Assembly: GCA_026645745.1 (NCBI GenBank)
Contig: JAPKMU010000003.1
Span: forward strand, 1-44,515
Source of the DNA: Anaerolineae bacterium
GTDB taxonomy: Bacteria; Chloroflexota; Anaerolineae; Aggregatilineales; Phototrophicaceae
Reading direction: 5' to 3'
DNA length: 44,515 nt
In this document: one piece after another, positions 186-26,843 of the stretch
Layout of the letters: every line of letters begins with the position of its first letter
Position numbering within the stretch: position 1 is the first letter of the stretch
The notes under the pieces: generated by a model
Databases searched by the model: none
Seen by the model: only the letters and a program-made list of their open reading frames with translations
What the model was told of the DNA's origin: nothing
Position numbers and translations under genes: made by a program

Positions 186-2123
186 TCACCCCATTGTAAT
201 GCCAAAACGCCGCGCCCACAGTTCTAAGTTGAGCAAGCGGAACACAACTTCGACTTGAGGTGCGCGCCCGCTGAAATGCCCATCTAAGAGCGCATCGAGC
301 GCCACCGGATTCAACCAGCCGCGCACCCAAGCCGACGGATCGCGCAGTGTCGATTCGATTCGTTCGCTCAATTCTCCGGCGAACCACTGCAAGATCGGCG
401 TGCTGAACGGCTGTTTGCGCCGTTCCAATGCGAACGCGGGCAGCATCGGACGCATCGCTTCGCGCAGCACATATTTATTCTCGCGCATGCGCACACTGCC
501 GGGGATACGCGCCGCAAACCGCAGCAAATCGGGATCGAAGAACGGAATGCGTGCCTCCAACGAATGCGCCATCGTCACTTTGTCGCCGTTCAAGAGCGCG
601 TTGCCATGCAGCCATGTGTTGATCACCACTGCTTGCGCGAATTGATCCGCGTCCTCACGCTGAGAGCGCGTGACGATCTCCGCGAATGTCGTTTCTTTGT
701 GGCAGTTCGCCTGCCATGCCTCGATCAGCGCGGGAGCGTACAAGCGGCGGCGCAGCGTATCGCTGAACACCAGCCCATCAAAGCTCTGAATCCGCCGGAT
801 CGCATCCGGCAGGGGCGCGGCGGCGGCGCGCACACGCGGGAGATACGTCGGCAGTGCGCCGAGTCCGCGATAACGCTTGAGTGCCGGATACAGCGGCTCA
901 ATCCGGTCGATGATCGGTGCGGCGGCGCGTGCGAATATGCCGTAACGCGTCTGCCGGTCGATCAATGCCGGAATTGCGCGGTGATTCGCATAGCCGCTGA
1001 ACAATTCATCCCCGCCTAAGCCCGTAAGCACGACTTTGAGCTGCGATCCGGTCAGTTCCGCCAGCAGCAGCAGCGAAACCGCGCTCGAATTCGCGTTTGG
1101 TTCGTCGTGATGATAAACATAACGCTCAAACCCCGCCCACCATTCCGCCGCCGTGATCACCCGCTCGTGATGATCCGCGCCGAAGTGCGCCGCGATTCGC
1201 CGTGCCGCGTCAAGTTCGTTGTCAGGGGTATCCGCCGTGTAGCCGATGGTGTACGTATTCACGCACCCACCCGCCTCAGCGGACATCATCGCCAGCACCG
1301 CCGCCGAGTCCACGCCGCCGCTCAAGAACAAGCCGAGCGGCACATCGGCGCGCAAGTGCAGCCGCACCGATTCGGTCAAGCGTTCGCGTGCTTCTTGAAT
1401 GATCGCCGCATCGGAGCGCGTATCCGGCGGCGCAGGCGGAGCGCCCGCATAATCGGGGAAATCCCAGTAACGCTGAAGCCGGATCGTATCGTTCTCCGCG
1501 ATCAACGCATGACCGGGCATCAAGCGTTTGACGCCGCCGAACAGCGTTTCTTGTCCGATCATGAAGCCGAACGAGAAATACGTATCCAGCACGGCGGGAT
1601 TTAAACGCGGCAGAATCCCCCCGGCGATCAGCGCTTTGACTTCGCTCGAAAAATACAGGAATCCGTTCTGCTCGGCATAATACAGCGGCTTGATCCCGAT
1701 ATGATCAACTGCCAAGACCAACCGCTGACGCGCCACATCGAACAGCGCGAAGGCGTACATACCGCGCAAATGCCGGAACATGCCGTCCACACCGTACTGT
1801 TCGTATAGGTGGATCAGCGTTTCGCCGTCGCCCTCCGTCGTCAGGTGATGCCCCTGTTTCACAAGCTCAGCGCGGAGTTCACGGTAGTTGTAAATTTCGC
1901 CGTTGAACACCATCGCAATCGAGCGATCTTCGTTGTAAAGCGGTTGATCGCTGCCATCGATGTCGATGATGCTTAAGCGGCGCATCCCCAGCGACGCCGA
2001 TCCATGATCATAAAAGCCGTCGCCATCCGGTCCCCGGTGACGGATTGCGTCACACATGGCGCGCACACGCGCGAATTCGACCCGCTCGCCGCGCTGATCA
2101 ACTATGCCTGCTATCCCGCACAT
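186..2123 (-). CDS. asnB: Asparagine synthetase, glutamine-hydrolysing
   Basis: Makes asparagine from aspartate, ATP and glutamine in the cytoplasm. The 645-residue protein begins MCGIAGIVDQ, so Cys2 can act as the N-terminal nucleophile of the class II glutaminase domain; FNGEIYNYREL follows near residue 75. The synthetase domain carries the pyrophosphatase loop SGGVDSAAV near residues 265-273. Length fits the family (about 600-650). The open frame extends further upstream, but I chose the ATG at 2121-2123 because Cys must follow Met and because AAGGAG lies just before it. The gene starts 37 bp after the stop of a TolB-like gene on the same strand, so the genes may be cotranscribed. It differs from the lasso cyclase at 19046, which has Ser in place of this Cys. 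Confidence 0.95.
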   Translation of the reverse strand: MCGIAGIVDQRGERVEFARVRAMCDAIRHRGPDGDGFYDHGSASLGMRRLSIIDIDGSDQPLYNEDRSIAMVFNGEIYNYRELRAELVKQGHHLTTEGDGETLIHLYEQYGVDGMFRHLRGMYAFALFDVARQRLVLAVDHIGIKPLYYAEQNGFLYFSSEVKALIAGGILPRLNPAVLDTYFSFGFMIGQETLFGGVKRLMPGHALIAENDTIRLQRYWDFPDYAGAPPAPPDTRSDAAIIQEARERLTESVRLHLRADVPLGLFLSGGVDSAAVLAMMSAEAGGCVNTYTIGYTADTPDNELDAARRIAAHFGADHHERVITAAEWWAGFERYVYHHDEPNANSSAVSLLLLAELTGSQLKVVLTGLGGDELFSGYANHRAIPALIDRQTRYGIFARAAAPIIDRIEPLYPALKRYRGLGALPTYLPRVRAAAAPLPDAIRRIQSFDGLVFSDTLRRRLYAPALIEAWQANCHKETTFAEIVTRSQREDADQFAQAVVINTWLHGNALLNGDKVTMAHSLEARIPFFDPDLLRFAARIPGSVRMRENKYVLREAMRPMLPAFALERRKQPFSTPILQWFAGELSERIESTLRDPSAWVRGWLNPVALDALLDGHFSGRAPQVEVVFRLLNLELWARRFGITMG

Positions 2124-2160
2124 AACCGGGGAAACTCCTTGTTTATCGTGGTAGACACAT

Positions 2161-6580: not shown

Positions 6581-7480
6581 TCATCCTTCCACGCTGTCGC
6601 GGGCGCGGAGCTGCGCGACCATCGTATCGAGTATTTGCTTGAACTCCGCCAGCGCTTCCGGGGCTGCTAACGCCCGCGCAATCGGCAGATTCGGTCGGCG
6701 GTCAGCGCGTTCTTCTTCAAATTCTTCTCCGGCAGGCATCAAGAAATTCAGCCGCCGCAAGACCCGCAGCCGTTCCGCCAGTTGATCATAAGGCGCGAAC
6801 GCCGCCAGATCACCAAACGGAATCTCTATTGACGGTTGACGCGGATAGGCGCGCACACGGAACACACTCAGCCCGCCGTTGCCGATCCACAATACCGCCG
6901 AAAGCGCGGGTTCTTTGTTGCCCGTAAAGCTGATCTCATCGACATTCGCTTCTGCCCACGCCAGCAGATCAAGCGCGGTTTGCGCGCACAAATCGCCGTC
7001 GGGGAGTTTTCTCAGGTGCTTAAAGAAGCGGTGATCGCGCAGCGCTTTTTTCTGCTTCTCAATCGCTTTTTCAGGGTTTTTGAGCATGGGTACTTTATTC
7101 AGCGCCTTGATCAGCCGCTCAAACCCGGCGTCAGCGTGGGTATGAAACGGAATCGCCTGTAATTCCTTCATGCTGAACGGAATCGGCGTTTCATCCATCT
7201 GCGCCATCATGATCGGTTTTTCCAACTCATCGGCGTACAGAGTTTCACGCTCGATCCAGCGTGACTGCACCGACTCGGCGGAGTGGATCAACACCACTGC
7301 CGCGCAGTTTTTGATCGCATTCTCAATGGATTTTGTCCAGCGCGAACCGGGTTCAATATCGCGTTCGTCGTACCACAGGGCAAAACCCGCGTTCGTCAGC
7401 CGCTCAATAAAGGTATCCCGATGCGGAAGATTTTGGCGGCTGTGACTCAGAAAGATATAAGGGCGCTGTGTGGTCATCAT
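6581..7480 (-). CDS. TIR-domain protein with unrecognised C-terminal module
   Basis: 299 residues. The first about 135 form a TIR fold: YIFLSHSRQN at 8-17, GFALWYDERDIEPGSRW at 32-48, and SRWIERE, in which Ser73-x-Trp75-x3-Glu79 matches the position of the catalytic Glu in NAD-cleaving TIR domains. The rest (about 140-299) is not a domain I can name; it contains VDEISFTGNKE, WIGNGGLSVFRV and FGDLAAFAPYDQLAERLRVLRRLNF-type alpha/beta sequence. Bacterial TIR proteins can act as NADases in phage defence or as signalling adaptors; neither role is shown here. Two ATGs are adjacent (7480 and 7477), preceded by GATTAGG, so the true start may be the second. The lipoprotein gene follows 10 bp downstream. 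Confidence 0.8.
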   Translation of the reverse strand: MMTTQRPYIFLSHSRQNLPHRDTFIERLTNAGFALWYDERDIEPGSRWTKSIENAIKNCAAVVLIHSAESVQSRWIERETLYADELEKPIMMAQMDETPIPFSMKELQAIPFHTHADAGFERLIKALNKVPMLKNPEKAIEKQKKALRDHRFFKHLRKLPDGDLCAQTALDLLAWAEANVDEISFTGNKEPALSAVLWIGNGGLSVFRVRAYPRQPSIEIPFGDLAAFAPYDQLAERLRVLRRLNFLMPAGEEFEEERADRRPNLPIARALAAPEALAEFKQILDTMVAQLRARDSVEG

Positions 7481-10460: not shown

Positions 10461-10480
10461 TCTATAAGGAGATGCTTTTC

Positions 10481-11704
10481 ATGAATCGCGCTAAAGTTCT
10501 CGCCTTGGTTATGCTTCTTGTCGTCGCGCTCGGTGCCGTTAGCGCCGTTGTCGCTCAGGACCCGGTCAATTTGATCGTGTGGTCGCAGGACGGTGACACC
10601 AATAACGTGGTGCTCGCTGAACAGTTCGAAATTTGGGCTGCCGCCAATATGCCCGGCGCGACCCTCGAAATCGTCCAGAAGGAAACCGAAGTCCTGCGCA
10701 ATGACCTGCTGACCGCTGGCTTGGCGGGTTCGGGTCTGCCCGATCTCGTCCTCGGACCGAACGATGCCATTGGCGTGTTCGTCGATGCCGGTCTGCTCCT
10801 GCCTCTCGATGACCTGTTTGATATGTCGCTGTATCCGTTCAACCTCGGCGCAGCGCAAATTGGCGGCGTCACCTACGGTGTCCCGACCAACGCCGGTAAC
10901 CACCTGATGCTGATGGTCAACACCAGCCTCGTGCCGGAAATCCCGCAGACGTTTGAAGAACTGCTCGCCGCCGCCGCTGCGGTCGAAGAAGCCAATCCTG
11001 ATATTCAGGGCTTCGCCTACAACCTGAACGAGCCGTTCTGGTTCCTGCCGTTCGTTCATGGCTTTGGTGGCAGCACCTACGGTGAAGATGGTTCGATGGT
11101 TCTCGATTCGCAGGCGTGGATCGATGCGTACCAGTTCGTCCATGATCTGAAGTTCGTCAGCGAAGCCGTGCCGCAGGAATGCGACTATGCTTGCGCCGAC
11201 TCGCTCTTCAAAGAAGGCAGCGTCGCCATGATCATCAATGGTGACTGGGCAATCGCTGAATACCTGAACCCGGAAACCTCCCCCGGTTTGGTTGACAGCT
11301 TCGCCGTCGCGCCGTGGCCCGAACTGCCGAATGGCAGCCGTCCGCAGCCGTTCACCGCTGGTAAGTTCCTCAGCATCCCGGCGACCGTTGAAGGCGCGCA
11401 GCTTGACGCCGCCGTCGCGTTCGCCACATGGCTGACCACCGATCCCGAATCCGTCGCGGCTTACTCGATTGGCACCGGTCGTCTGCCCGCTATCGCCGCC
11501 GTCGCGGTTGATCCCGAAACCGACCCGATCCTCGCGCAGTCGAACGAAGCGCTGACGACCGGTGTGGGTATGCCCGCCGACCCGACGCTCCGCTGCATGT
11601 GGGACAGCGTCCGCCCGAGCCTTGAAGGTGTCATGAGCGACAGCATGAGCGCTGAAGATGCAGCAATGGAAGCGCAGATCTCCGCTGAAGACTGCCTCGG
11701 CTAA
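10481..11704 (+). CDS. Sugar ABC transporter solute-binding protein
   Basis: 407 residues. A cleavable signal peptide (MNRAKVLALVMLLVVALG, cleavage probably near VVAQ-DP) precedes a family 1 extracellular solute-binding protein: VNLIVWSQDGDT at the mature N-terminus, PDLVLGPNDAIG, GVTYGVPTNAGN and an internal FKEGSVAMIINGDWAI, a hallmark of maltodextrin-type binding proteins. No lipobox is seen, so it may be free or held another way. ATAAGGAG sits 9 nt before the ATG at 10481; an earlier ATG at 10472 falls in the Shine-Dalgarno and is unlikely. Codon choice is more strongly biased than in neighbouring genes (many CTG, GGT, GTC), as expected for a highly expressed binding protein. The exact sugar is unknown. 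Confidence 0.93.
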   Translation: MNRAKVLALVMLLVVALGAVSAVVAQDPVNLIVWSQDGDTNNVVLAEQFEIWAAANMPGATLEIVQKETEVLRNDLLTAGLAGSGLPDLVLGPNDAIGVFVDAGLLLPLDDLFDMSLYPFNLGAAQIGGVTYGVPTNAGNHLMLMVNTSLVPEIPQTFEELLAAAAAVEEANPDIQGFAYNLNEPFWFLPFVHGFGGSTYGEDGSMVLDSQAWIDAYQFVHDLKFVSEAVPQECDYACADSLFKEGSVAMIINGDWAIAEYLNPETSPGLVDSFAVAPWPELPNGSRPQPFTAGKFLSIPATVEGAQLDAAVAFATWLTTDPESVAAYSIGTGRLPAIAAVAVDPETDPILAQSNEALTTGVGMPADPTLRCMWDSVRPSLEGVMSDSMSAEDAAMEAQISAEDCLG

Positions 11705-11730
11705 TCCGTCCCTAACCCTGATGTAGAGTC

Positions 11731-11764
11731 TCTTAGGGCGAAATCAGTTGATTTCGCCCTAAGA
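11731..11764 (+). terminator. Perfect stem-loop between binding-protein and permease genes
   Basis: TCTTAGGGCGAAATCA (11731-11746) is followed by GT and its exact reverse complement (11749-11764), a 16-bp stem with a minimal loop. There is no long T-run. In ABC operons such hairpins after the binding-protein gene commonly protect its mRNA end and reduce read-through into the permeases; that role is inferred here. Confidence 0.75.
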
Positions 11765-11784
11765 CTTTCAGGAGATACCCCAAA

Positions 11785-12897
11785 ATGGAATTTAGCGGTT
11801 TATCCATCGAGATCATCCTAAATACTTTACAGGTGCTGCTCCCGCTCCTCATCATTCTCGTAATTGGTGTCATTGCTCTTGAAGTGGGCTTGTATCTGTT
11901 CCTCGCGCGGGTGATCAAGACGAAATATGCGCTGCCGTATACGCTGCTTGCTCCGGCGTTCGTCGCGCTCGTCGTCTTTATGATTTACCCTCTGATCTTC
12001 AACGTGCTGTTGGCATTCTCCAATCTTGAACGCAGCACTTTCGCCTGTTACAGCCCGGTTTCGTTGGGAACATGCGAACTCGATCACCTTTACGGACTCG
12101 ACTACGCGATCCAGAACTTCTCGGATGTTTTCTTCCGCGTGCGTGATGGCGAGATCGTCGGGTGGGGGCGCTTGCTCAGAACCGCTGATTCCACTTTTCC
12201 TGTGCTGCTCGGTCGCACTGCCATCTGGACGATTACGAACGTAGTCTTCCATTTCGGGATCGGGATGGCGCTGGCGATCATCATGAATCAGAAAATTCGC
12301 TTCAAGGGTATTTACCGCGCCTTGATCGTGATCCCTTGGGCGATTCCATCCGTCATCGTCGGTTTGACATGGCGACAGGAATTCCACGCGCAGTATGGTT
12401 TTGTCAACGTACTGATTCAGGCGTTGGGCGGGCAGCCGGTGAGCTGGCTCGACGAACCCACCGCCGCATTCATCGCGGTGATCTTTGTCAACGTCTGGTT
12501 AGGCGTGCCGTTCTACATGATCATGCTGCTCGGTGGTATGCAAAGCATCCCGGCGGACTATTACGAAGCCGCCAACATCGACGGCGCGAGCGCATGGCAG
12601 CGCTTTAACGGTATCACCATGCCGCTGCTTCGTCCGATCATTATTCCAGCGGTCACGCTCGACGTGATTTGGACGTTTAACAAGCTCGATGTCATTTTCT
12701 TGGTCACGGGTGGAGGTCCTCAAGAAAGTACCAACATCTTAGTGTCGGCGTTGTATAACGCCGCCTTTGGACCCGCCGCGACGACCGAACTTGGCTTTGC
12801 TGCCGCCTTCTCGATCATCATCTTCATCATTCTGTTCATCTTCGCTCTGGTGTGGATCACGACCAGCGGTGGTTTGAAGGAGATTTACGACCGATGA
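11785..12897 (+). CDS. Sugar ABC transporter permease, MalF type
   Basis: 370 residues with several membrane segments, including a first one at about 9-38 and YTLLAPAFVALVVFMIYPLI near 52-71. The cytoplasmic EAA loop that contacts the ATPase reads EAANIDGASAWQRFNGITMP. An N-terminal extension before the core six helices fits MalF-type rather than MalG-type permeases. CAGGAGATACC precedes the ATG at 11785. Its last codons overlap the next gene as ATGA, so translation is probably coupled. It pairs with the MalG-like protein to form the channel; no ATPase gene lies in the window, so a shared MsmK/UgpC-like ATPase encoded elsewhere is expected. Confidence 0.93.
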   Translation: MEFSGLSIEIILNTLQVLLPLLIILVIGVIALEVGLYLFLARVIKTKYALPYTLLAPAFVALVVFMIYPLIFNVLLAFSNLERSTFACYSPVSLGTCELDHLYGLDYAIQNFSDVFFRVRDGEIVGWGRLLRTADSTFPVLLGRTAIWTITNVVFHFGIGMALAIIMNQKIRFKGIYRALIVIPWAIPSVIVGLTWRQEFHAQYGFVNVLIQALGGQPVSWLDEPTAAFIAVIFVNVWLGVPFYMIMLLGGMQSIPADYYEAANIDGASAWQRFNGITMPLLRPIIIPAVTLDVIWTFNKLDVIFLVTGGGPQESTNILVSALYNAAFGPAATTELGFAAAFSIIIFIILFIFALVWITTSGGLKEIYDR

Positions 12898-13880
12898 GTA
12901 CTCAAACTGCTGTGACTCCTGCACCAACCCCCACATGGTCTGAGGGTGGTTTTAAGCGTGTACGCCAGTTGATCGCTGGTGTGCTTGCGATTGGCGGTCT
13001 GGTCTTGACGCTGGTCAACGGCTTCAGCATCGGCTATCTGATTGTCGGCTTGTGGCTGGCGCTGCTGGTTTGGAAACCCCTGCATGGGATTCTCGTGTTC
13101 TACGCGACAATTTCGGTGTATCCAGTGCTGCGCGTGATCAGTATTTCACTGCGCCCCACCGACGGACTGCTTTCGCGCTCACTTGATCTGATTCCCCCCG
13201 GCGCGACCTTGAACAGCTTTGTCGAGTTGTTTGAAGAAGAAGAATTCCTCCGCTGGATTTGGAACAGCGCCGCTATCACGATCACCGTCTCAACCATCGG
13301 CGTTGTGATCGCCGCGACGGGCGCTTATGCCTTCAGCCGTTGGCGTTTCCCCGGTCGCCGCCCGCTCTTGATTTTCCTGCTCACCACCCAGATGCTCCCG
13401 GCGTCGATGCTGCTCATCCCGATCTATGTGATCGTGGCGCAGCTCAACCTAACCAACAATGTGATCGGGTTGGTGCTGGCGTATACGTCCACCGCCGTTC
13501 CGTTTAGCATCTGGATTTTGAAAGGGTACTACGACACGATCCCGCCGGACTTGGAAGAAGCGGGCATGGTGGACGGATGCACGCGCATGGAAGCGTTCTA
13601 CCGGATCATCCTGCCGCTTTCAACACCCGCGCTGTCGATTGTGTTCTTGTTCAACTTCTTGGCGTCTTGGTCAGAATTCCTCGTCGCCAAGGTGATCTTG
13701 CAGGCGAATCAGGTCATGACGTGGCCGCTCGGCTTAAACGAATTGATCGGTACGTTTAACACGGACTGGGGCAAGTATGCAGCGGGTTCCGTCTTCGTCA
13801 CGATTCCCGTTCTGCTGCTGTTCCTGTGGCAGTCGAAGTATTTGATCTCCGGTTTGACGCTCGGCAGCGTCAAGGGGTAA
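12894..13880 (+). CDS. Sugar ABC transporter permease, MalG type
   Basis: 328 residues. Two hydrophobic segments near the N-terminus precede the core; the EAA loop is EEAGMVDGCTRMEAFYRIILP, and the family pattern PIYVIVAQLNLTNN and WSEFLVAKVIL are present. The ATG at 12894-12896 overlaps the TGA of the MalF-type gene, with AAGGAG in the preceding codons; the longer frame upstream is not needed. The two extra N-terminal membrane segments (about 17-60) are longer than in typical MalG. The gene ends the transporter operon; the next 206 bp contain repeat element R3. Confidence 0.93.
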   Translation: MSTQTAVTPAPTPTWSEGGFKRVRQLIAGVLAIGGLVLTLVNGFSIGYLIVGLWLALLVWKPLHGILVFYATISVYPVLRVISISLRPTDGLLSRSLDLIPPGATLNSFVELFEEEEFLRWIWNSAAITITVSTIGVVIAATGAYAFSRWRFPGRRPLLIFLLTTQMLPASMLLIPIYVIVAQLNLTNNVIGLVLAYTSTAVPFSIWILKGYYDTIPPDLEEAGMVDGCTRMEAFYRIILPLSTPALSIVFLFNFLASWSEFLVAKVILQANQVMTWPLGLNELIGTFNTDWGKYAAGSVFVTIPVLLLFLWQSKYLISGLTLGSVKG

Positions 13881-16993: not shown

Positions 16994-17392
16994 ATGATGC
17001 AAATGGCGATTGGCTTAAAAACGACGCTTCACATGGACTACGATGCCGCCCTCCAGCGCGTCCTTGAGGCGTTGAAGGCGGAAGGCTTCGGCGTGATCAC
17101 CGAAATCGACGTGAAAGATACGCTCAAGAAAAAGCTCGATCTCGATTTTCACCAGTACCGCATTCTCGGCGCGTGCAATCCGGCGCTTGCGCACCGCGCA
17201 TTAACCACCGCCCCGGATGTCGGGCTGCTGCTGCCGTGCAACGTAACGGTTGTACAGGCGGACAACGGCGTTGACGTAGCGATCATCGACCCGAAGATGA
17301 TGATGAGCGTACTACCGAACGAAGGTCTGCGCGTGATCGCGGACGAAGCGCGGGAACGTTTGGAGCGGGTGATTAAGGCTTTAGAGGCATAG
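16994..17392 (+). CDS. DUF302 domain protein
   Basis: 132 residues, predicted cytosolic. Landmarks of DUF302 (PF03625) are ALQRVLEALKAEGFGVITEIDV near the N-terminus, then HQYRILGACNPALAHRAL and VGLLLPCNVTVV in the centre. The family fold is known but its function is not established. The start region reads TTG ATG ATG CAA ATG; I chose the first ATG (16994), with AGGGAATAGGA about 9 nt upstream. Its 3' end overlaps the end of the convergent kinase gene by 20 bp. Confidence 0.85.
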   Translation: MMQMAIGLKTTLHMDYDAALQRVLEALKAEGFGVITEIDVKDTLKKKLDLDFHQYRILGACNPALAHRALTTAPDVGLLLPCNVTVVQADNGVDVAIIDPKMMMSVLPNEGLRVIADEARERLERVIKALEA

Positions 17393-18368
17393 CGCGCACA
17401 TCGGCTTCGATGAACTGCGCCAATTCGGGAAGCTGATCCAGTCCTCGGCGGCGGATCAAGCGGCGTACGTTCAAGTGTGGCAGTGAACGGGCGAGAAACG
17501 CGAAATCGCGCTGCATATACGGCTGCACCACGCTTAACGGCGTGTTGTAGCTGTCGCATAAATGGGTGATGTAGGCGTGTGCGCTCAGTTGAACAATGAT
17601 CTCACCCGCTGAGAGGGGTTCGACCGTGTTGGTTTCGCCGTAGCGCAAAATGTAGATCGCCGCGACCGGGAGCGGTTCAGAAGTGTTTGCCGACTCAGCC
17701 TCCGCAAACGCGAATTTTTGTGAGCCGTCATAGACGGGCTGCGCGCCTGCTTCATCGCCGCCAACCGCGCGATAGGACTCCGGCAGAAGTTTCAAACGCG
17801 GCGCATTCGGGTAGATCATCACGCGCTGAGATGCCGGATCAACCACCAGCGCGGCTTTGTCATCGCTCAACACGGGATGCCCGCGCCTTGAAAGCGCCGC
17901 CGCCGTCGTCGATTTACCAAAGCCGGACTCGGCGGCGAAGATCACCGCCTGCCCATCCACCGCGACCGCGCTCGCGTGCAGCACCAGCGCTCCCCGCTGG
18001 TTGAGGAGCACCGCCATCGCATCGTTCAGGATGACATCCGTCCATGTTTCTTGCGCTGTGTTTGGTGAACTCAAGATATCGATGTGCGTGCCGTTCGAAA
18101 CGGTGCAAGTCCCCATGGGTGCCCAATTGAAAATCAAACTGCCGCCGCTGACTTGAATCGTCGGGTCAGCGTTCAACGGCAGTGCATCATCGGCATAGTC
18201 AATGCCGATCACGACATCAGGCGGCACATCATTCAAATTCAGTTCAGGAATAGGGAGGCGGACTGTAGATCGAACCGTTACGCCGTCAATCGCGTAACCG
18301 GCAGGTGTCGAAAATAGAAAAGGGCTGCTTGTTGTGCTGTCAGCCCTGTTTGGATCTCGCGTATTCAC
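17373..18368 (-). CDS. HPr-kinase-like kinase of the lasso-peptide cluster
   Basis: 331 residues. The C-terminal half is an HprK-type P-loop kinase: LHASAVAVDG at 130-139, Walker A ESGFGKST at 147-154 and LSDD at 167-170. The first 110 residues are a variable domain. Proteins of this type occur in lasso clusters; ThcoK and PadeK phosphorylate the C-terminal Ser of the precursor (known from the paeninodin group). The precursor here, encoded 24 bp upstream on the same strand, does end in Ser, which fits. The start is GTG at 18366-18368 with GGAA just before; a different start is possible. It could also act on another substrate. Confidence 0.85.
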   Translation of the reverse strand: MNTRDPNRADSTTSSPFLFSTPAGYAIDGVTVRSTVRLPIPELNLNDVPPDVVIGIDYADDALPLNADPTIQVSGGSLIFNWAPMGTCTVSNGTHIDILSSPNTAQETWTDVILNDAMAVLLNQRGALVLHASAVAVDGQAVIFAAESGFGKSTTAAALSRRGHPVLSDDKAALVVDPASQRVMIYPNAPRLKLLPESYRAVGGDEAGAQPVYDGSQKFAFAEAESANTSEPLPVAAIYILRYGETNTVEPLSAGEIIVQLSAHAYITHLCDSYNTPLSVVQPYMQRDFAFLARSLPHLNVRRLIRRRGLDQLPELAQFIEADVRAMPLKP

Positions 18369-18392
18369 TTCCAGCCAAACATCTAGCAGGAT

Positions 18393-18527
18393 TTAGCTGC
18401 CGAAGCGGAACATTGCGGTGGGGGTGCCACCAACATCTGGCTGATCACCGTTCATGCTGTTCAAGGTGATATTCTGGACAGAACCATATTGGCGAAGTGT
18501 CGGACGGGTGTACGTCTTCTTCTGCAT
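18393..18527 (-). CDS. Lasso peptide precursor
   Basis: 44 residues starting MQKKTYTRPTLRQYGSVQNI. The leader shows the lasso motif Y-x2-P-x-L-x3-G-x5-T (Tyr6, Pro9, Leu11, Gly15, Thr21) read by the PqqD-like RRE protein. With Thr at leader position -2, cleavage after Leu22 gives a 22-residue core, positions 23-44, beginning NSMNGDQPD. Asp31 would be core residue 9 and would close a nine-residue ring on Asn1. The tail has Arg41 and ends FRFGS with a C-terminal Ser. AAGGATAGGCGCA precedes the ATG at 18527; an upstream in-frame start adds 20 unlikely residues. A core starting at Ser24 (ring to Asp8) is the main alternative. Confidence 0.85.
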   Translation of the reverse strand: MQKKTYTRPTLRQYGSVQNITLNSMNGDQPDVGGTPTAMFRFGS

Positions 18528-18765
18528 TGCGCCTATCCTTCCAATGAAATTGATAACAAGGAGAAAGCAGTGGTGAATGACATCCATTGACTCCCTACAA
18601 AAGAATATATCGAATCGCAGAAGGTGTCAATTTCCCATTTTCGCATATCTGTAAAAAACCCATTGCTCTTAACATCTCTGGCATTTTGCTATGGAATCGT
18701 GCCGCGTTTGCACCTACAATCAGCTTGGATCACTGCTGCACATACAAGTCAAGAGGAACTCAACG
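18528..18765. promoter_or_regulatory. Divergent control region of the lasso cluster
   Basis: This 238-bp gap separates the minus arm (precursor, kinase) from the plus arm (RRE, cyclase, methyltransferase, peptidase). It is clearly more AT-rich than the flanking genes, for example 18597-18670. TTGACT at 18587-18592 is a -35-like hexamer on the plus strand, but no well-spaced -10 could be fixed. It must hold both promoters if the two arms are transcribed separately. Confidence 0.4.
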
Positions 18766-19044
18766 TTGAACTCGCAAACCACCGTTACCGCAACCGCGAA
18801 CCACGTTGCCACCGAAATGCAAGGCGAAACTGTCATCCTGAGTTTCACAACCGGGGAATACTTCGGACTCGATGAGGTTGGGGCGCTAATCTGGAAGAAT
18901 ATTCAACAGCCGACCTCCATCGCGCGGCTGTGCGAGATCATTATGGCAGAATACGACGTTGATGAAGCCCAGTGTATGCAAGATGTTCAGGCGTTGGTGA
19001 CGGAACTCGTCGCTCACGAACTGGCACTCGAATCTTCGTTATAA
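18766..19044 (+). CDS. PqqD-like RRE protein of lasso cluster (B1)
   Basis: 92 residues, the usual size of stand-alone RiPP recognition elements. Hallmarks are GEYFGLDEVGALIWKNI and the helical C-terminal half DEAQCMQDVQALVTELVAHELAL. It should bind the precursor leader through Tyr/Pro/Leu and present it to the B2 protease and cyclase. I chose TTG at 18766 because AAGAGGA lies 8-9 nt before it and the resulting N-terminus fits the family; an in-frame ATG at 18691 would add 25 residues without a good ribosome site. The stop is one base before the cyclase start, so the two are coupled. Confidence 0.88.
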   Translation: MNSQTTVTATANHVATEMQGETVILSFTTGEYFGLDEVGALIWKNIQQPTSIARLCEIIMAEYDVDEAQCMQDVQALVTELVAHELALESSL

Positions 19045-19045
19045 G

Positions 19046-21097
19046 ATGAGCGGCATCGCTGGCAGTGTCGATTTCGGCGGTGCGATCCCGTCCACCGCGC
19101 ATCTCGAAAACCTCCGGTGGATGCTGGAGGAAATGGCACACTACGGCGCAGACCGCACCGGAACATGGATCGGAGCGGGAGCGGCGTTAGGGCACTGCCT
19201 TCAACTGAACGCCCCCGAATCTCCTTATGATGTGCAGCCGCTCCAACGTGGAAACCTCGTCATCACCGCTGATGCACGCTTGGACAACCGCGACGATCTC
19301 AAGCGCGCCCTGAATTTGAGCGACGGCGATCTGCCGCTGACGGATGCCGAGATTCTGCTTGCCGCTTATCACCGTTGGGGATCAGACTGCGCACCGCACT
19401 TGATCGGTGATTTTGCGTTCGTGATCTGGGACGACGCCGAACGCCGCGCTTTCTGTGCGCGGGATCGCTACGGAGTGCGCCCATTCTTCATGATGCACAC
19501 TCCGGGTGAGCGCTTTCTGTTCGCATCACATGAGTGGGCGATCCTGACTCAAGTCTCAGTTCAGGCAAGCGATCTCTACATCGCGCAGATGCTCATGAGC
19601 ATGTTATCGACCGTCAAAGCCGGGGCATATACCAGCCGCTACGAAGGCGTGAGCGTGCTGCCGCCGTCACACACCGCGATCATCACTGCCGAGCGCGTGA
19701 TTCTCAGCCGCTACTGGCAGATCGACGCTGCCCCGGAACTTCACCTGAAAACGGATGAGGATTATATCGACGGTTTCCGTGAGCGGTTTTTACAAGCCGT
19801 TCAAGCCCGCACCCGTTCGCTGTATCCGGTCGCCGCGCATCTCAGCGGCGGACTCGATTCCTCGGCGGTGGTGTGCGCGGCGCGGCATGTTTCGCCCGGA
19901 ACAGAACTTCACACGCTCTACAACATGCCGGATCACCCGGATGCGGACGAACGCCCGTATGTGCAAGCCGTCCTCGATCAAGGCGGGCTGACGCATCATC
20001 ATCAAACACGCTTTCGCAGCACGCTCCCAAGCCAAGCGGAGACAGCGCACGAAGGCATTGACGGATCGATGTTCGCCAACCGCGAAATGCTCGCGCATTT
20101 TCGACCGGATAACGTTCGCACGCTGCTAACAGGCTTCGACGGGGATACGATTGTCCCGTTCGGAACGGAATATCTGTATGATCTGGCACGGATGCAAGAT
20201 TGGGCGGCGTTCTTTCATGAAGCCCGCGCGTTTGCCGATCACAATAAGCGGCGCACACCCGCGACGGAAGCCTCAACCTTGGCGCGCTACGGGCAGCCTG
20301 TTTTTGACGAATGGATCAAAGCGCGGCGGTACGGCGCATATCTTCATGCCCTGACGATGATCAAGCGCGAAACGGGAATTTCACGCTATCACCTGATTCG
20401 CTGGCGTGGGCGATTGTGGCTGCCGCCTCCGCTGCGCGCCGTGCTGGAGCGCGTGCGTCCTTCCGGCTCACTTCCCGCAGCATGGGATGACCTGAACCCG
20501 ACAATTCAACCGGAATTGGCGCGGCGCTTTCGCTTGGACTCAATCGCGCAGCACGATCAACAGGAAGCGCGATCCCTGCGCGAAACACATCTCCGCTTCG
20601 CCGCGCCGGAACACTACGGCGATTCGCTCGACTTGTTCACGAAATTTTATGCGCGTTCCAATGCGGAGGTGCGTCACCCATTCTTAGATGTACGCGTCGT
20701 CGAGTTCCTGCTTGGCACGCCGGGGCATCTTAAGCTGAAAGACGGTTGGAATCGGTATATCGTCCGCCGCGCACTCGATGGGCTGATGCCGCCGTCGGTG
20801 CAGTGGCGCGGAGACAAACCGCACGCGGGCGAGGACTTTTTGAACAATATGAAACGTGAGGACACGCCGCTTATGGAAAGCATCATCTACGGCGATCTCA
20901 GCGACTTTGAAGCCTATCTCGTGCCTTCCGCGCTGCGAACCGTCTACGAGCGCTTTAAGAATCCGCCGGAAAATATGTCGAATTCGGCGCGTTACCGGGA
21001 CGGCTATGTGATCTGGCGCGCGGTCGATGTCGTCGTGTGGGTGCGCGCCGTGCGCCAGCGGGCAGCGGCGTTTGAAGCGCGGCGGGCGGCGTTATGA
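19046..21097 (+). CDS. Lasso macrolactam synthetase, asparagine-synthase-like (C protein)
   Basis: 683 residues. The protein resembles AsnB but starts MSGIAGSVDF: Cys2 of the glutaminase is replaced by Ser, so it should not hydrolyse glutamine, as is usual for lasso cyclases. The ATP-binding loop HLSGGLDSSAVV lies near residues 264-275. It would adenylate the side chain of the ring acid (Asp9 of the core) and join it to the core N-terminus. The start is one base after the RRE stop, and the last codons overlap the methyltransferase start as ATGA. A second AsnB homologue at 186-2123 has the intact Cys2 and is the true asparagine synthetase. Confidence 0.92.
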   Translation: MSGIAGSVDFGGAIPSTAHLENLRWMLEEMAHYGADRTGTWIGAGAALGHCLQLNAPESPYDVQPLQRGNLVITADARLDNRDDLKRALNLSDGDLPLTDAEILLAAYHRWGSDCAPHLIGDFAFVIWDDAERRAFCARDRYGVRPFFMMHTPGERFLFASHEWAILTQVSVQASDLYIAQMLMSMLSTVKAGAYTSRYEGVSVLPPSHTAIITAERVILSRYWQIDAAPELHLKTDEDYIDGFRERFLQAVQARTRSLYPVAAHLSGGLDSSAVVCAARHVSPGTELHTLYNMPDHPDADERPYVQAVLDQGGLTHHHQTRFRSTLPSQAETAHEGIDGSMFANREMLAHFRPDNVRTLLTGFDGDTIVPFGTEYLYDLARMQDWAAFFHEARAFADHNKRRTPATEASTLARYGQPVFDEWIKARRYGAYLHALTMIKRETGISRYHLIRWRGRLWLPPPLRAVLERVRPSGSLPAAWDDLNPTIQPELARRFRLDSIAQHDQQEARSLRETHLRFAAPEHYGDSLDLFTKFYARSNAEVRHPFLDVRVVEFLLGTPGHLKLKDGWNRYIVRRALDGLMPPSVQWRGDKPHAGEDFLNNMKREDTPLMESIIYGDLSDFEAYLVPSALRTVYERFKNPPENMSNSARYRDGYVIWRAVDVVVWVRAVRQRAAAFEARRAAL

Positions 21098-22260
21098 GCG
21101 ACTTCACACGCGACGGTTACAAGGTCGCTGATTATGGATTTATGGCGGGGGATCTCGTGCGCGTGCAGGCATACGCCGACGCGATGCGCCGCGTGATCAC
21201 GCCTGAAACCGTCGTCTTGGAGATCGGCACGGGTTCGGGGTTGTTCGCCATGCACGCCTGCCAGCTTGGAGCGAAGCGCGTTTACGCGATTGAAGTGGAG
21301 GATGCGGTCGAAGCCGCGCGCGAAAGCGCCGCCGCTAACGGCTTCGCGGATCGGATCACGTTTTATCATGCCGCCTCGACTCAGGTCACGCTCCCCGAAC
21401 TTGCCGATGTGTTGATCAGCGACTTACGCGGGACGCTCCCGCTGCATAACCATCACCTCGAAACGATCCGCGATGCGCGGGCGCGCCTGCTCAACCCCGG
21501 CGCGCTTCAACTTCCGCAGCAGGATACGATTTTCTTTGCGCCGGTGTACGCGCCGGAAAGTTATCAAGATCGCGTCGAGCCTTGGAAGAAGAATCCGTTC
21601 GGGCTGAACATGGACGCGGGGCGCAAAACGACGATCAACACGTACTTCACACACCGCGTTAAACCGGAAGAAATCATCCTGCCCGCTCAAACATGGGCGG
21701 AGATCGACTACTGCCGCGATGATGCGCCGCTTAACTACGCCCATACGCTGACATGGACAATCGATCAACCGCTCGTCGTTGATGCGCTGCAAGGCTGGTT
21801 TGAGGCGCGCATTTATGATGAGATTGGCTATCGCACCTCCCCGGATCAACCGAGGCTGGCATACAACACCGCCTATTTCCCGCTCGAACAACCGGTGAGC
21901 GTACAAGCGGGAGAAACTTTAAGCGTGTTCATGCGGGCGGATAATCACGGTGGCTTGTATACGTGGTCATGGAAAACGCGGGTGATTGGCGCGGATCAAC
22001 GGGAGCGGATTTCCTTTCAGCAGTCTACATTTTTCGCCAGCGTGGGCAGCCTTCGCCAGCGTGCGCCGATGTACCAGCCCGGTTTGAGTCGATCCGGGAT
22101 CATCGACGGTACGATTCTCACGTGGATGAACGACGGCGCAGCAGTCGCGGAGATCGCGCGGCGCTTAATGGCGCAGTTCCCCGATGTGTACCCAGATACA
22201 GGTGCGGCACTCGCCAAAGCCGGGAATATGTCCATCCGTTACGGGAATCACGCACCATGA
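21094..22260 (+). CDS. PRMT-like SAM methyltransferase of lasso cluster, with RRE-like C-terminus
   Basis: 388 residues. Motif I VLEIGTGSGLFAMHACQLGA (41-60) with acidic Glu67 after KRVYAI, and the segment ADVLISDLRG then ARARLLNPGAL, follow the class I fold of protein arginine methyltransferases. The double-E loop SEWMG of PRMTs is SDLRG here (109-113), so the substrate may differ. A beta-barrel-like part follows (about 160-325). The last about 55 residues (from ~333: GTILTWMNDGAAVAEIARRL, then FPDVYPDTGAALAKAG) resemble a PqqD winged helix, perhaps a fused leader-binding domain; this is pattern recognition only. ATGA overlaps on both sides bind it into the operon. Likely target: Arg41 or a carboxylate of the precursor. 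Confidence 0.82.
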   Translation: MSDFTRDGYKVADYGFMAGDLVRVQAYADAMRRVITPETVVLEIGTGSGLFAMHACQLGAKRVYAIEVEDAVEAARESAAANGFADRITFYHAASTQVTLPELADVLISDLRGTLPLHNHHLETIRDARARLLNPGALQLPQQDTIFFAPVYAPESYQDRVEPWKKNPFGLNMDAGRKTTINTYFTHRVKPEEIILPAQTWAEIDYCRDDAPLNYAHTLTWTIDQPLVVDALQGWFEARIYDEIGYRTSPDQPRLAYNTAYFPLEQPVSVQAGETLSVFMRADNHGGLYTWSWKTRVIGADQRERISFQQSTFFASVGSLRQRAPMYQPGLSRSGIIDGTILTWMNDGAAVAEIARRLMAQFPDVYPDTGAALAKAGNMSIRYGNHAP

Positions 22261-22703
22261 TTCGCCAGTGGGCACGACTTTCCGGCGCGCGGCGCGGTGC
22301 GCTGATCCGCGCCCTTCCATTGATGATCGCTGTCCGTGTGTGGCTGTGGGTTGTGCCGCTCCGGTATTGGCAGTCGCAGTTGAAGCAGATGATGAGCGGA
22401 TCTGGGGCAGCCGACGAAAAAGAATCGACTGCCGCGATCACATGGGCAGTTGAGCGCATCGGGCGCATCCCGCCCATGACCTGCCTCGTGCAAGCGATTG
22501 CCGGGTACATCCTGCTCCGGCGCTCTGGCGTATTCTCGCGGCTTCGCATCGGCGTCCGCCGTGATGGGGATCAATTTCGCGCGCACGCATGGCTGGTCAA
22601 CGCCCGCGATGAAGTGCTGATCGGCGGACAAAACGGTTTAGGCACGTTCGCCGCCTTCGACTTCGATTCGAATACAGCCTCCACGTTCTTGAAGTCCCTT
22701 TGA
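22257..22703 (+). CDS. Lasso leader peptidase, transglutaminase-like (B2)
   Basis: 148 residues, typical of stand-alone B2 proteins. The catalytic pattern is RIPPMTCLVQAIA (Cys76) and FRAHAWLV (His110), with Asp118 as candidate third residue. It removes the leader after the residue following the conserved Thr, in complex with the RRE protein. The ATG at 22257 overlaps the methyltransferase stop as ATGA; a longer frame reaching 21963 is inside the methyltransferase gene and not used. No exporter gene (D protein) follows, so export must depend on a transporter elsewhere. Confidence 0.9.
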   Translation: MIRQWARLSGARRGALIRALPLMIAVRVWLWVVPLRYWQSQLKQMMSGSGAADEKESTAAITWAVERIGRIPPMTCLVQAIAGYILLRRSGVFSRLRIGVRRDGDQFRAHAWLVNARDEVLIGGQNGLGTFAAFDFDSNTASTFLKSL

Positions 22704-22805: not shown

Positions 22806-25800
22806 ATGACCCGTATTCGTTCTGCGCTCATGCTTTGTTTGTTTGCCGCCTTTCTGCTCAGCGCCGCTTTGCCCGTCCACGCGACGTATTTTTCGGTCGG
22901 CTGCACGAATGGCGTTGGCGATGTCGCCCAATTTCGGGCACATATCAACACTGCCATGAGCAGCGGCGGCACGGATACGATCTGGCTTGCGCCGGACTGC
23001 ACGTATACGCTCACACAGCCGCTGACTATCGGGGCAGGGACAGCGCAGTCGCTCACGATACAGGGGCAAGGCGGGACGGTGATCAGCGGGAATAACGCTG
23101 TGCGCGTGTTCAACATTACCGCCCCAACCATCCCGATCACGCTGCAAACCATGACGATACAAAACGGGTACGCGACCAGCGGCGCGGCGGCGATCCATGC
23201 GGGCAACAGTTCAAACCTCACGCTCGACAACGTGACTGTGCGTAATAATCGCGTGTCGTATGGTGGTACTGGGTACGGATACGCCGCAATTTATGCTTAC
23301 GGTGGCTGGCTGACGATCACCAATTCAACGATCATCGACAACGACGGGTTTTATGGCGGCGCAGTTGCAGCGGAACGCGCACTCGTCCAAATCAGCAGCA
23401 GCACAATCCGCAGGAATACGGCAGTCGGTCCGGGCGGCGGGTTATACATCCTCGGTCGGACTTATCTCGTATTCGATCTGACTGTTACCAGCAGCACCAT
23501 CAGCGAAAATATCGCTCGAGGTTCCCTAGGGGGCGGCGGCGTTTATCTGCTTGGGCAGGACACTGGCGCGCAGTTTTCAAACACACGCATCACCAATAAT
23601 TATGGGGGAACAGGCGGCGGCATTTTCGCTTCCAGCGCCGATCTCTCGTTGATCAACACGATCGTGAGCGGCAATCTATCAGGACCCGGCGGCGGCATTT
23701 ATATCGACGGTTACGATCCCGATGTCACGATTTCCGGCTCGACCATCAACGGCAACCGTTCGCTGACGTTAGGCGGAGGCATGGACGCGACGGTCAACAT
23801 GTACGGCTCATTGTCGATCAGCACCAGCACCTTTGCCGGAAACCGCGCCCAGACGGGCGGCGCGGTGCGTGGGATCGGCATGACCACGATTGCGGATGCG
23901 ATCATGAGCGGCAATTATGCCAGCCTAAGCGGCAGCGCGCTTGAAGGGTCGATCTTTGACGTGGATCGAAGCGCCTTTATTGGCAATCGTACCGAAACGA
24001 GCAGCGCAATCTATGCCGCTTTTGGGAGTGATGCTTACATCACCGAAGTTGACGCAAGCTGTTTTGAAGGAAATACGCCCTATGCGATGCTTACCCGCCC
24101 TAACGCATATGATTTGCGCGCCGACGGCAACTGGTGGGGCGACCCGACCGGACCCGGCGGCGAAGGTTCGGGCTTTGGTGATGCCGTCGGCGCGCATGTG
24201 ATTTTCGCGCCGTTCTTGACCAGCCCTCCGGCGGCATGCCAAAACCTACCCACTGACTCTGTTGTGAGCATGTTCGCCGCCCCGCCGTACTTGATCGAAG
24301 GCGGCACGGGCACGCTCACAATTATGCGTGAGATTCCGACAAACGCCCCGCTCACAGTGAACTTCACACGCGGCGGCACAGCGAATGCAGAGGATTATAT
24401 ACTCCGCATGAACGGCACGGACATCACGGGCGATTCGATCACCATTCCAGCAGATCACGGGTTCGCGCCGATTGATTTTGTCGCCGTGCGCAACTTTCGG
24501 GACGAGCAGCAGAATGATACGGTGATTCTCACGCTGGTCGATGATCCCACGTACACCGTGACGGATTATGCGCGTTCAATAGAAGTCGAGATTGAGGACT
24601 ATGATGTCTCGCGGGTGTGGCTGTACTCTCTGATACCCGTTCCGTCCACGCTGATCGAAGGCGAGACGCTGACATATGAGGTCAACATTACGACGATCCC
24701 GTATGCGGATGTGACCGTGACCGTGCATTTTGACCCGGCAGAAGTCGCGATCAACGGGGAGACGGACGGGAGCGTTGATCTGGTATTCAACGAGTCCAAT
24801 TGGAACACGCCGCAGACGCTTATGGTCACGGTGGTCGATGATGCTGTGCCGGAAAACGAATGGGTGTATCAGTTCCTAGAAGCGACGACGATCACGCATA
24901 CCGTTACCAGCGCCGATGCGCTCTACAACGGCTACCCTGTCCCAGACTTCCCGCTCAACATCCGCGATAACGATGTCGATATTTGCGCGGTACAGGATCA
25001 GATTCCGGTCAGCGAATGCCGCGCCCTGATCGACCTCTACGAATCGACCAACGGCGATGGGTGGACGAATCGCGGCGGCTGGCTGGAAGGAACCACGATT
25101 TGCGGCATGTGGGAAGGCGTGGTGTGCGAGTACCTGCCCCCGGCGGGCGGCGATCCGCTGGTGACGCCCGAGCCGAATGAATGGGCGAATGTCGTCGGCT
25201 TGGAGCTGTCCCAGAACAACCTGACCGGCACGCTGCCCGATTCATTCATTAACTTGTCCCATCTGCGCTATGTAAACATGCATTCAAATGCTATCACCGG
25301 CACACTGCCTGAGTTGGAAAGCCTAAGCGAGCTATATAGTTTGAGTTTGTCTAGAAATCAGCTCAACGGGGAAATTCCGTCGCTGCCTTCGGAAATCGTA
25401 ACGATACTCCTTGCGCACAATCAATTGACAGGTAGTATTCCTGAGATAGCAGGTCTGAGCGCGTTGATTCAATTAGAACTCCACGATAATCAACTGAGCG
25501 GCGAAATTCCACCGCTGCCTCCCACACTGTATTCACTGGCGCTCGACGATAATCTGCTGAGCGGATCGATTCCACCGCTGCCTGCCGCCCTGAACTATTT
25601 CTCGGCGTCGAGCAATCAGTTGACCGGATCAATTCCCACGCTGCCGCCAATCCTCGAATATCTGTTTCTAGACAACAATCAGCTGACTGGCTCACTTCCC
25701 CCACTGCCAGAAAGTCTGATTATCATTCAGGTACCACAGAATGACATGACCGGATCGATTCCCCCTCTGCCTCCCAGCCTGATAGCGCTCGGTGTGGCTG

Positions 25801-26843
25801 GCAACCAGTTCTCCGGCGCACTGCCAGAGTTTCCCGCTCCGCTCTTGTTCATAGACGTCGCGGACAACGCCCTAACCGGGGTCGTTCCACCCTCGATTAC
25901 TCAGACCGCCATCTCCGAGCCCCATTATATGCGCAACCTCTATCTCTGCGGCGGCGAAAATGACCTCGCCTCCGATGACCCGGCGGTGAATACGTTCATT
26001 GAAGCGTATGCGCCGGGATGGTCACCCCTCAACGGCTGTCTGCCGCGCCTGTCGGTGATCGATGTCGTCGATGTCGTGCCTGATCCGCCAGTCGCGCCTG
26101 TCGGTTCGGTGGATGTGATCCTGTCCGAACTCGCGGACATCTCGACTTTCACCTATCAAGACGTGACGCTGATGCGCGGTTCGACTCCGGTCACGCTCGA
26201 TTCGTCGGTCACGGTTGCGCTGCACGACGCGCCGACGTTCACCTACCGGATCAGCGGGCTGACGTCGTTCACCACGCCGTTTGGGGTGTACACGCTTACG
26301 GTGAACGCAGCAGGGCTGCGCGATCAATTCGGTTTGCTGCCCACGTCACCAAGCACCGCCAGCGAGACGTGGACATGGGTCGAAACCGGATCGCTCACCG
26401 TTGAAGTCGATCTGCAAGGACGACCCGCCGCGCCCCATGCGAGTTATCTCATTCCGGTTGATGTGACGCTTGAGACGGCGGGCGGTGACACCGTGCTGCA
26501 CGAGACGATCACGCTCGATACTTACGGCATGTTTGCGCTGAATAACCTGATCCCCGGCAATTACACGCTGCGCGTCAAGCCGTCCAACGGGCTGGCGCTC
26601 AGTCAAGCGATCACCTTGACGAGCGGCGCGAACAGCGTGTATATGGGCATGATCCCAACTGGAGATGCGAACGGCGATAACCGTGTCAGCTTACTCGATT
26701 TCTCACTGCTGGCGCAGGCATTTGGCACGAGCCAAGGCGCACCGGGGTATAACCCTGCGGTGGACTTCAATGGCAACACGGTGATCGATCTGCTCGATTT
26801 TTCGGCGCTGGCGTCGAATTACGGCACAGCGGGCGCAGACTGA
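22806..26843 (+). CDS. Large secreted beta-helix / Calx-beta / LRR / dockerin protein
   Basis: 1345 residues. Order: signal peptide (1-26, ending VHA), right-handed beta-helix (about 50-470) with repeated NGGGIYI-like and ITNSTI-like turns and a NWWGDPTGPGG end motif, two Calx-beta-like domains (about 485-725), then an LRR region (about 727-1060). The LRR part starts with the cap CRALIDLYESTNGDGW and has about ten 21-24 residue units of the plant type (NQLTGSIPPLPPSL). A beta-sandwich part follows, and a dockerin with two calcium loops (GDANGDNRVSLLDF, VDFNGNTVIDLLDF) ends it. It should be exported and may bind polysaccharide, a surface or a cohesin partner. Its stop lies inside the 25-bp repeat described below. 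Confidence 0.9.
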   Translation: MTRIRSALMLCLFAAFLLSAALPVHATYFSVGCTNGVGDVAQFRAHINTAMSSGGTDTIWLAPDCTYTLTQPLTIGAGTAQSLTIQGQGGTVISGNNAVRVFNITAPTIPITLQTMTIQNGYATSGAAAIHAGNSSNLTLDNVTVRNNRVSYGGTGYGYAAIYAYGGWLTITNSTIIDNDGFYGGAVAAERALVQISSSTIRRNTAVGPGGGLYILGRTYLVFDLTVTSSTISENIARGSLGGGGVYLLGQDTGAQFSNTRITNNYGGTGGGIFASSADLSLINTIVSGNLSGPGGGIYIDGYDPDVTISGSTINGNRSLTLGGGMDATVNMYGSLSISTSTFAGNRAQTGGAVRGIGMTTIADAIMSGNYASLSGSALEGSIFDVDRSAFIGNRTETSSAIYAAFGSDAYITEVDASCFEGNTPYAMLTRPNAYDLRADGNWWGDPTGPGGEGSGFGDAVGAHVIFAPFLTSPPAACQNLPTDSVVSMFAAPPYLIEGGTGTLTIMREIPTNAPLTVNFTRGGTANAEDYILRMNGTDITGDSITIPADHGFAPIDFVAVRNFRDEQQNDTVILTLVDDPTYTVTDYARSIEVEIEDYDVSRVWLYSLIPVPSTLIEGETLTYEVNITTIPYADVTVTVHFDPAEVAINGETDGSVDLVFNESNWNTPQTLMVTVVDDAVPENEWVYQFLEATTITHTVTSADALYNGYPVPDFPLNIRDNDVDICAVQDQIPVSECRALIDLYESTNGDGWTNRGGWLEGTTICGMWEGVVCEYLPPAGGDPLVTPEPNEWANVVGLELSQNNLTGTLPDSFINLSHLRYVNMHSNAITGTLPELESLSELYSLSLSRNQLNGEIPSLPSEIVTILLAHNQLTGSIPEIAGLSALIQLELHDNQLSGEIPPLPPTLYSLALDDNLLSGSIPPLPAALNYFSASSNQLTGSIPTLPPILEYLFLDNNQLTGSLPPLPESLIIIQVPQNDMTGSIPPLPPSLIALGVAGNQFSGALPEFPAPLLFIDVADNALTGVVPPSITQTAISEPHYMRNLYLCGGENDLASDDPAVNTFIEAYAPGWSPLNGCLPRLSVIDVVDVVPDPPVAPVGSVDVILSELADISTFTYQDVTLMRGSTPVTLDSSVTVALHDAPTFTYRISGLTSFTTPFGVYTLTVNAAGLRDQFGLLPTSPSTASETWTWVETGSLTVEVDLQGRPAAPHASYLIPVDVTLETAGGDTVLHETITLDTYGMFALNNLIPGNYTLRVKPSNGLALSQAITLTSGANSVYMGMIPTGDANGDNRVSLLDFSLLAQAFGTSQGAPGYNPAVDFNGNTVIDLLDFSALASNYGTAGAD

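Follow-up and report, generated by a model that had tools for sequence, protein, structure and literature searches.

Gene content and organization of the lasso peptide cluster

The window (the whole 44,515-nucleotide stretch of DNA analyzed here) contains a group of six genes organized in two divergent arms. The minus-strand arm is made up of an HprK-like kinase gene (K, 17373..18368; HPr_kinase_C, 1e-5; TIGR04352, 1e-11) and a lasso precursor gene (A, 18393..18527; NF033528, 6.8e-6, below the 33-bit cutoff; NF033521, 0.027). The plus-strand arm codes for B1, a PqqD-type leader-binding protein or RRE (18766..19044; PqqD, 2.4e-19; NF033536, 1.3e-21), an asparagine-synthetase-like macrolactam cyclase without Cys2 (C, 19046..21097; NF033535, 3e-150, at 502 bits just under the cutoff of 525), a PRMT-fold methyltransferase of the SD[LI]RG type (M, 21094..22260), and B2, a transglutaminase-like leader peptidase (22257..22703; Transglut_core3, 9.9e-21; NF033537, 5.9e-23, above the cutoff). 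A preliminary description had proposed a lasso cluster with these genes, leader pattern, and divergent arms in a Chloroflexota host, and both the cluster, at these coordinates, and the host assignment are supported by our searches, the former by family profiles. With an RRE, a transglutaminase-like B2, an asparagine-synthetase-like cyclase, and a precursor all recognizable, this is a real lasso peptide cluster, complete except for an exporter, and its genes predict a threaded, dehydrated product.

B1 probably starts at the TTG at 18766, preceded by AAGAGGA (18751-18757), with an alternative ATG at 18691. The ATGA overlaps described for the plus arm exist between cyclase and methyltransferase and between methyltransferase and B2, but B1 and the cyclase are separated by one base. 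The cyclase was said to lack Cys2, as confirmed by its MSGI N-terminus; the SGGLDSS motif is present. No exporter adjoins the cluster, again as first described, and nearby transporter-type genes (10472-13880) seem, from their first residues and gene order, to serve in the import of sugars. A second asparagine-synthetase-like gene, 17 kb from the lasso cyclase (186-2147, minus strand), codes by profile for an ordinary asparagine synthetase, with an MCGI start that retains Cys2. Elsewhere in the window, a TIR-domain protein (6581-7480, minus strand; TIR_2, 2e-20; ThsB_TIR, weak match) is coded next to a predicted lipoprotein-like gene, and the gene directly downstream of B2 (22806-26843, plus strand) codes for a secreted protein of 1345 amino acids that combines leucine-rich repeats with a dockerin-type domain at its C-terminus.

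The precursor consists of the leader MQKKTYTRPTLRQYGSVQNITL, which matches Y-x2-P-x-L-x3-G-x5-T exactly, and the core NSMNGDQPDVGGTPTAMFRFGS. We reproduced both the 22-residue length proposed for the core and the mass of its unmodified lasso form (2266.97 Da). The first nine core residues, NSMNGDQPD, include D6, Gln7, and D9; the last is the acid found at core positions 7 to 9, where ring-forming D/E is expected, so that the predicted ring runs from N1 to D9, leaving D6 as a candidate methylation site. The core has a single arginine (Arg19), near the end of the tail, and terminates in Ser22. In the kinase, which is expected to phosphorylate Ser22, the His-Lys-Asp-Asp motif described for paeninodin kinases (PMC9266682) is intact (HASAV...GFGKST...LSDD). 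B1, B2, the cyclase, a kinase with these residues, and the C-terminal serine are all shared with clusters of the paeninodin/pseudomycoidin type, from which the window differs in the PRMT-fold methyltransferase, the Chloroflexota host, the divergent arms, and the lack of an adjoining exporter. Many other Chloroflexota lasso clusters (among L031-L090) have an intact kinase motif beside precursors that do not end in Ser/Thr, such as Glu in L065, Phe in L069, Val in L073, and Gly in L081, unlike the paeninodin rule.

Distribution among Chloroflexota

B2 was found in 76 of 396 genomes of the window's class. We read 60 of these loci, and 28 of them have at least 5 kb on each side of B2. A recognized lasso cyclase is present in half of the flanked loci (14/28) and a kinase in 18, including every one of the 14 with a cyclase, whereas none of these 14 codes for a PRMT-fold methyltransferase. 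The kinase is a standard, close to universal part of lasso clusters in this class, and it is the methyltransferase, not its pairing with the kinase, that is the rare and distinctive feature of the cluster. The window's own genome has a second lasso cluster (contig C634, locus L084) with B1, B2, cyclase, and kinase, without such a methyltransferase.

Searches covering about 870 distinct genomes of Chloroflexota turned up a PRMT-fold methyltransferase in six more lasso loci (L006, L027, L028, L091, L092, and L093). These loci span two classes, since L006 (contig JAERMM010000278.1, which is also that of locus L009) belongs to another class. The same gene set had been proposed as something to look for in other Chloroflexota: the kinase does accompany the methyltransferase in all seven loci, window included, but it also occurs regularly without it, and the 7/7 cooccurrence is uninformative because kinases are so common. 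Methyltransferase and kinase genes are often neighbors (L006, L027, L028, and L092). An ABC exporter (ABC_tran, 2e-37) is coded in L091 as well, and PF14907 nucleotidyltransferase genes are present in both L091 and L093. A plasmid collection queried with the window methyltransferase gave no match, a scan of genome contigs with a two-sequence alignment returned a single relative that was already known, and widening the search to other orders and families near the positive genomes added no methyltransferase-bearing lasso clusters. As to the proposal that kinase plus PRMT-like enzyme is an uncharacterized combination, the pairing is not what sets the cluster apart, but a literature search, from which subscription papers were mostly absent, found no RiPP pathway, lasso or other, with a PRMT-fold enzyme.

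A PRMT fold with a different substrate loop

Among the solved structures listed as matches to the methyltransferase, there are only PRMTs (PRMT8, 9.5e-24 with the protein and 1.6e-45 with its family profile), aligned over residues 16-276 and covering both the Rossmann domain and the beta-barrel known from PRMT1 and PRMT8. No PCMT (PIMT) match appeared at the thresholds used. The fold call rests on sequence, as the AlphaFold model, computed from a two-row alignment, has a mean pLDDT of 48. The PRMT substrate loop SEWMGxxLxxE is replaced by SDLRGTLPLHNH, with both substrate-binding (double-E) glutamates missing, and the THW loop reads AYNTAYFPL, without the histidine. Hence, "PRMT-like" is true of the fold and not of the substrate-binding residues. 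The conserved arginine of the SD[LI]RG loop suits, we infer, an anionic (carboxylate) acceptor. Also different from PRMT1 and PRMT8 is an extra C-terminal helical domain (residues 325-388 approximately), shared with L023, L028, L029, and L091 to L093, which had no Pfam match; a possible likeness to the helical half of PqqD/RRE scored an hhalign probability of 9%.

Methyltransferases of the window type form a clade of 11 proteins (support, 100/100), nine of which have SD[LI]RG, the other two having GDLRG and QDLHG. Five members are located in lasso clusters (window, L006, L027, L091, and L092). Other PRMT-fold types are carried by L028, L027b, and L093, with the double-E kept in the first two; lasso methyltransferases are not one clade, and the tree forces at least three changes of association. 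The L027 locus has a second PRMT-fold methyltransferase (L027:7878-8957), cut by the contig end, that keeps the double-E loop (SEIIGNDPLAEG).

Within the clade, L026 has no telling neighbor, and the same methyltransferase type is found in L021 (1924-4941) beside PqqD-like and radical SAM genes, neighbors that suggest a possible role of the subfamily in further RiPP pathways. Small SHOCT-domain proteins are coded directly upstream of methyltransferase relatives in L022 (2225-2674), L023 (8793-9269), L024 (3459-3872), and L025 (2042-2581); they have an Arg/Gly-rich N-terminus and a membrane span, with RGIGGPG repeats in L025. The pairing of SHOCT protein and methyltransferase is conserved away from lasso clusters and may represent a protein methylation system of bacteria. 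Members outside lasso clusters (L021-L026) fit a reading in which the true substrate is not this peptide, or in which another ring atom or backbone position is modified, and a PRMT-like domain has been presumed, by assignment, to O-methylate a tyrosine in an NRPS (PMC10127204). This reading has a small chance of being correct, considering the ATGA translational coupling of cyclase, methyltransferase, and B2 here and the recurrence of such enzymes in seven lasso loci.

Core residues associated with the methyltransferase

We compared the five cores that accompany SDLRG-type methyltransferases with 18 ring-capable cores from loci without that enzyme, aligned by leader register (Tyr+17 as core position 1); background cores were found by the leader pattern, which may miss or misassign some peptides. 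The five rings are NSMNGDQPD (window), QMVTGDMGD (L091), EGANADAND (L092), AGGASDDVD (L027), and SSDKVGSLD (L006), and all of them would close at D9; for L027 and L092, the register rests on leader spacing, with Val in the place of Thr-2. An extra ring Asp is present in 5/5 of these cores versus 0/18 of the others (P = 3e-5), and in four of the five it is Asp6 (Asp6-x-x-Asp9; 0/18 in the others, P = 0.0006), values to be read as post hoc, the association having been noticed after looking at the data, and as coming from five positive cores only, three of them from one family and so not fully independent. Regardless of register, Asp6 of these four cores lies at position -3 relative to the Asp that closes the ring. 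Asp6 was the strongest residue-position association, equaled in 13 of 3000 label shuffles and in 6 of 3000 when all plausible cores were used. L006 is the exception, with its extra ring Asp at D3. D6 is followed by Gln, Met, Ala, or Asp, and not by the Thr/Ser of known aspartimide examples. Two precursor-like open reading frames with lasso leaders (L074:7402-7503 and L049:7488-7574) lack a ring acid; their tails read GRGRGRGRR and ARGRKKKKK, respectively, and they are perhaps a different type of peptide.

The PRMT name suggests arginine methylation, which here would make the enzyme an arginine N-methyltransferase acting on Arg19. The fold itself, the position of this only core arginine, and the Arg/Gly-rich proteins beside same-clade enzymes in four genomes speak for this; the SHOCT neighbors fit arginine methylation there and count against Asp6 as the target. 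However, the guanidinium-binding residues are those missing from the enzyme, there is no arginine anywhere in the precursor of L091 (the closest sibling, from the same family and with this methyltransferase type), nor in the core of L092, and core arginine does not track with the methyltransferase (3/5 versus 8/18, P = 0.64). Arginine methylation is, therefore, disfavored, and Arg19 is an improbable target.

The main rival to Asp6 is the C-terminus of the peptide, where the methyl acceptor would be the alpha-carboxylate, as it is in lassomycin, the hydroxyl of Ser/Thr, or the phosphate that the kinase adds. All five SDLRG-type cores end in Ser/Thr, compared with 4/18 of the others (P = 0.004), the methyltransferase and kinase genes often adjoin, and lasso peptides O-methylated at the C-terminus are known (PMC9266682). 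However, a Ser/Thr end is already expected from the kinase, and this target leaves Asp6 unexplained. In addition, the lassomycin-type O-methyltransferases (StspM), although also coded in lasso clusters, are set apart by their published description as a different methyltransferase family. We consider methylation at the C-terminus rather unlikely.

Proposed pathway and its significance

In the lasso aspartimides described so far, the core has DTAD at positions 6 to 9, where D6 is methylated by a PIMT homolog and D9 closes the ring (PMC13001092; PMC10787088), and all RiPP aspartimides reported until now have been attributed to a PIMT homolog (PMC13001092). On the predicted ring closure, the cluster shares with the lassimiditides cellulonodin-2 and lihuanodin the nine-residue ring closed at D9, Asp6, and a methyltransferase gene, but its enzyme has a PRMT instead of a PIMT fold, the WxxxGxP motif is absent, D6 is followed by Gln7 in place of Thr/Ser, and a kinase is present. 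Since the methyltransferase tracks with Asp6 and the published aspartimides share D6 and D9, a PRMT-fold enzyme may be performing the equivalent Asp6 step. The reading that we favor, at close to an even call, is that of a paeninodin-like lasso peptide in which the PRMT-fold methyltransferase methylates the ring Asp6, giving an ester or an aspartimide, and not an arginine.

In this pathway, the leader would be bound by B1 and removed by B2 after Thr-2/Leu-1, and the cyclase would form a nine-residue ring by linking the Asn1 N-terminus with the Asp9 side chain. As in paeninodin, the kinase would probably act on the linear precursor, phosphorylating Ser22. The methyltransferase would act on the side-chain carboxylate of Asp6, and the resulting methyl ester would either stay or collapse to an aspartimide, so that the enzyme would do the job of the PIMT-type enzymes of lihuanodin and cellulonodin-2 by means of a different protein family. 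It is possible, if somewhat doubtful, that the exchange for SD[LI]RG turned a PRMT fold into a ring-Asp methyltransferase that evolved independently of PIMT and works alongside C-terminal phosphorylation.

If this is true, the aspartimide step would be served by two unrelated enzyme families that converge on Asp6 of a nine-residue lasso ring, and genome mining could look further than PIMT. Nature would also have provided an example of a PRMT fold redirected from cationic substrates to an anionic one.
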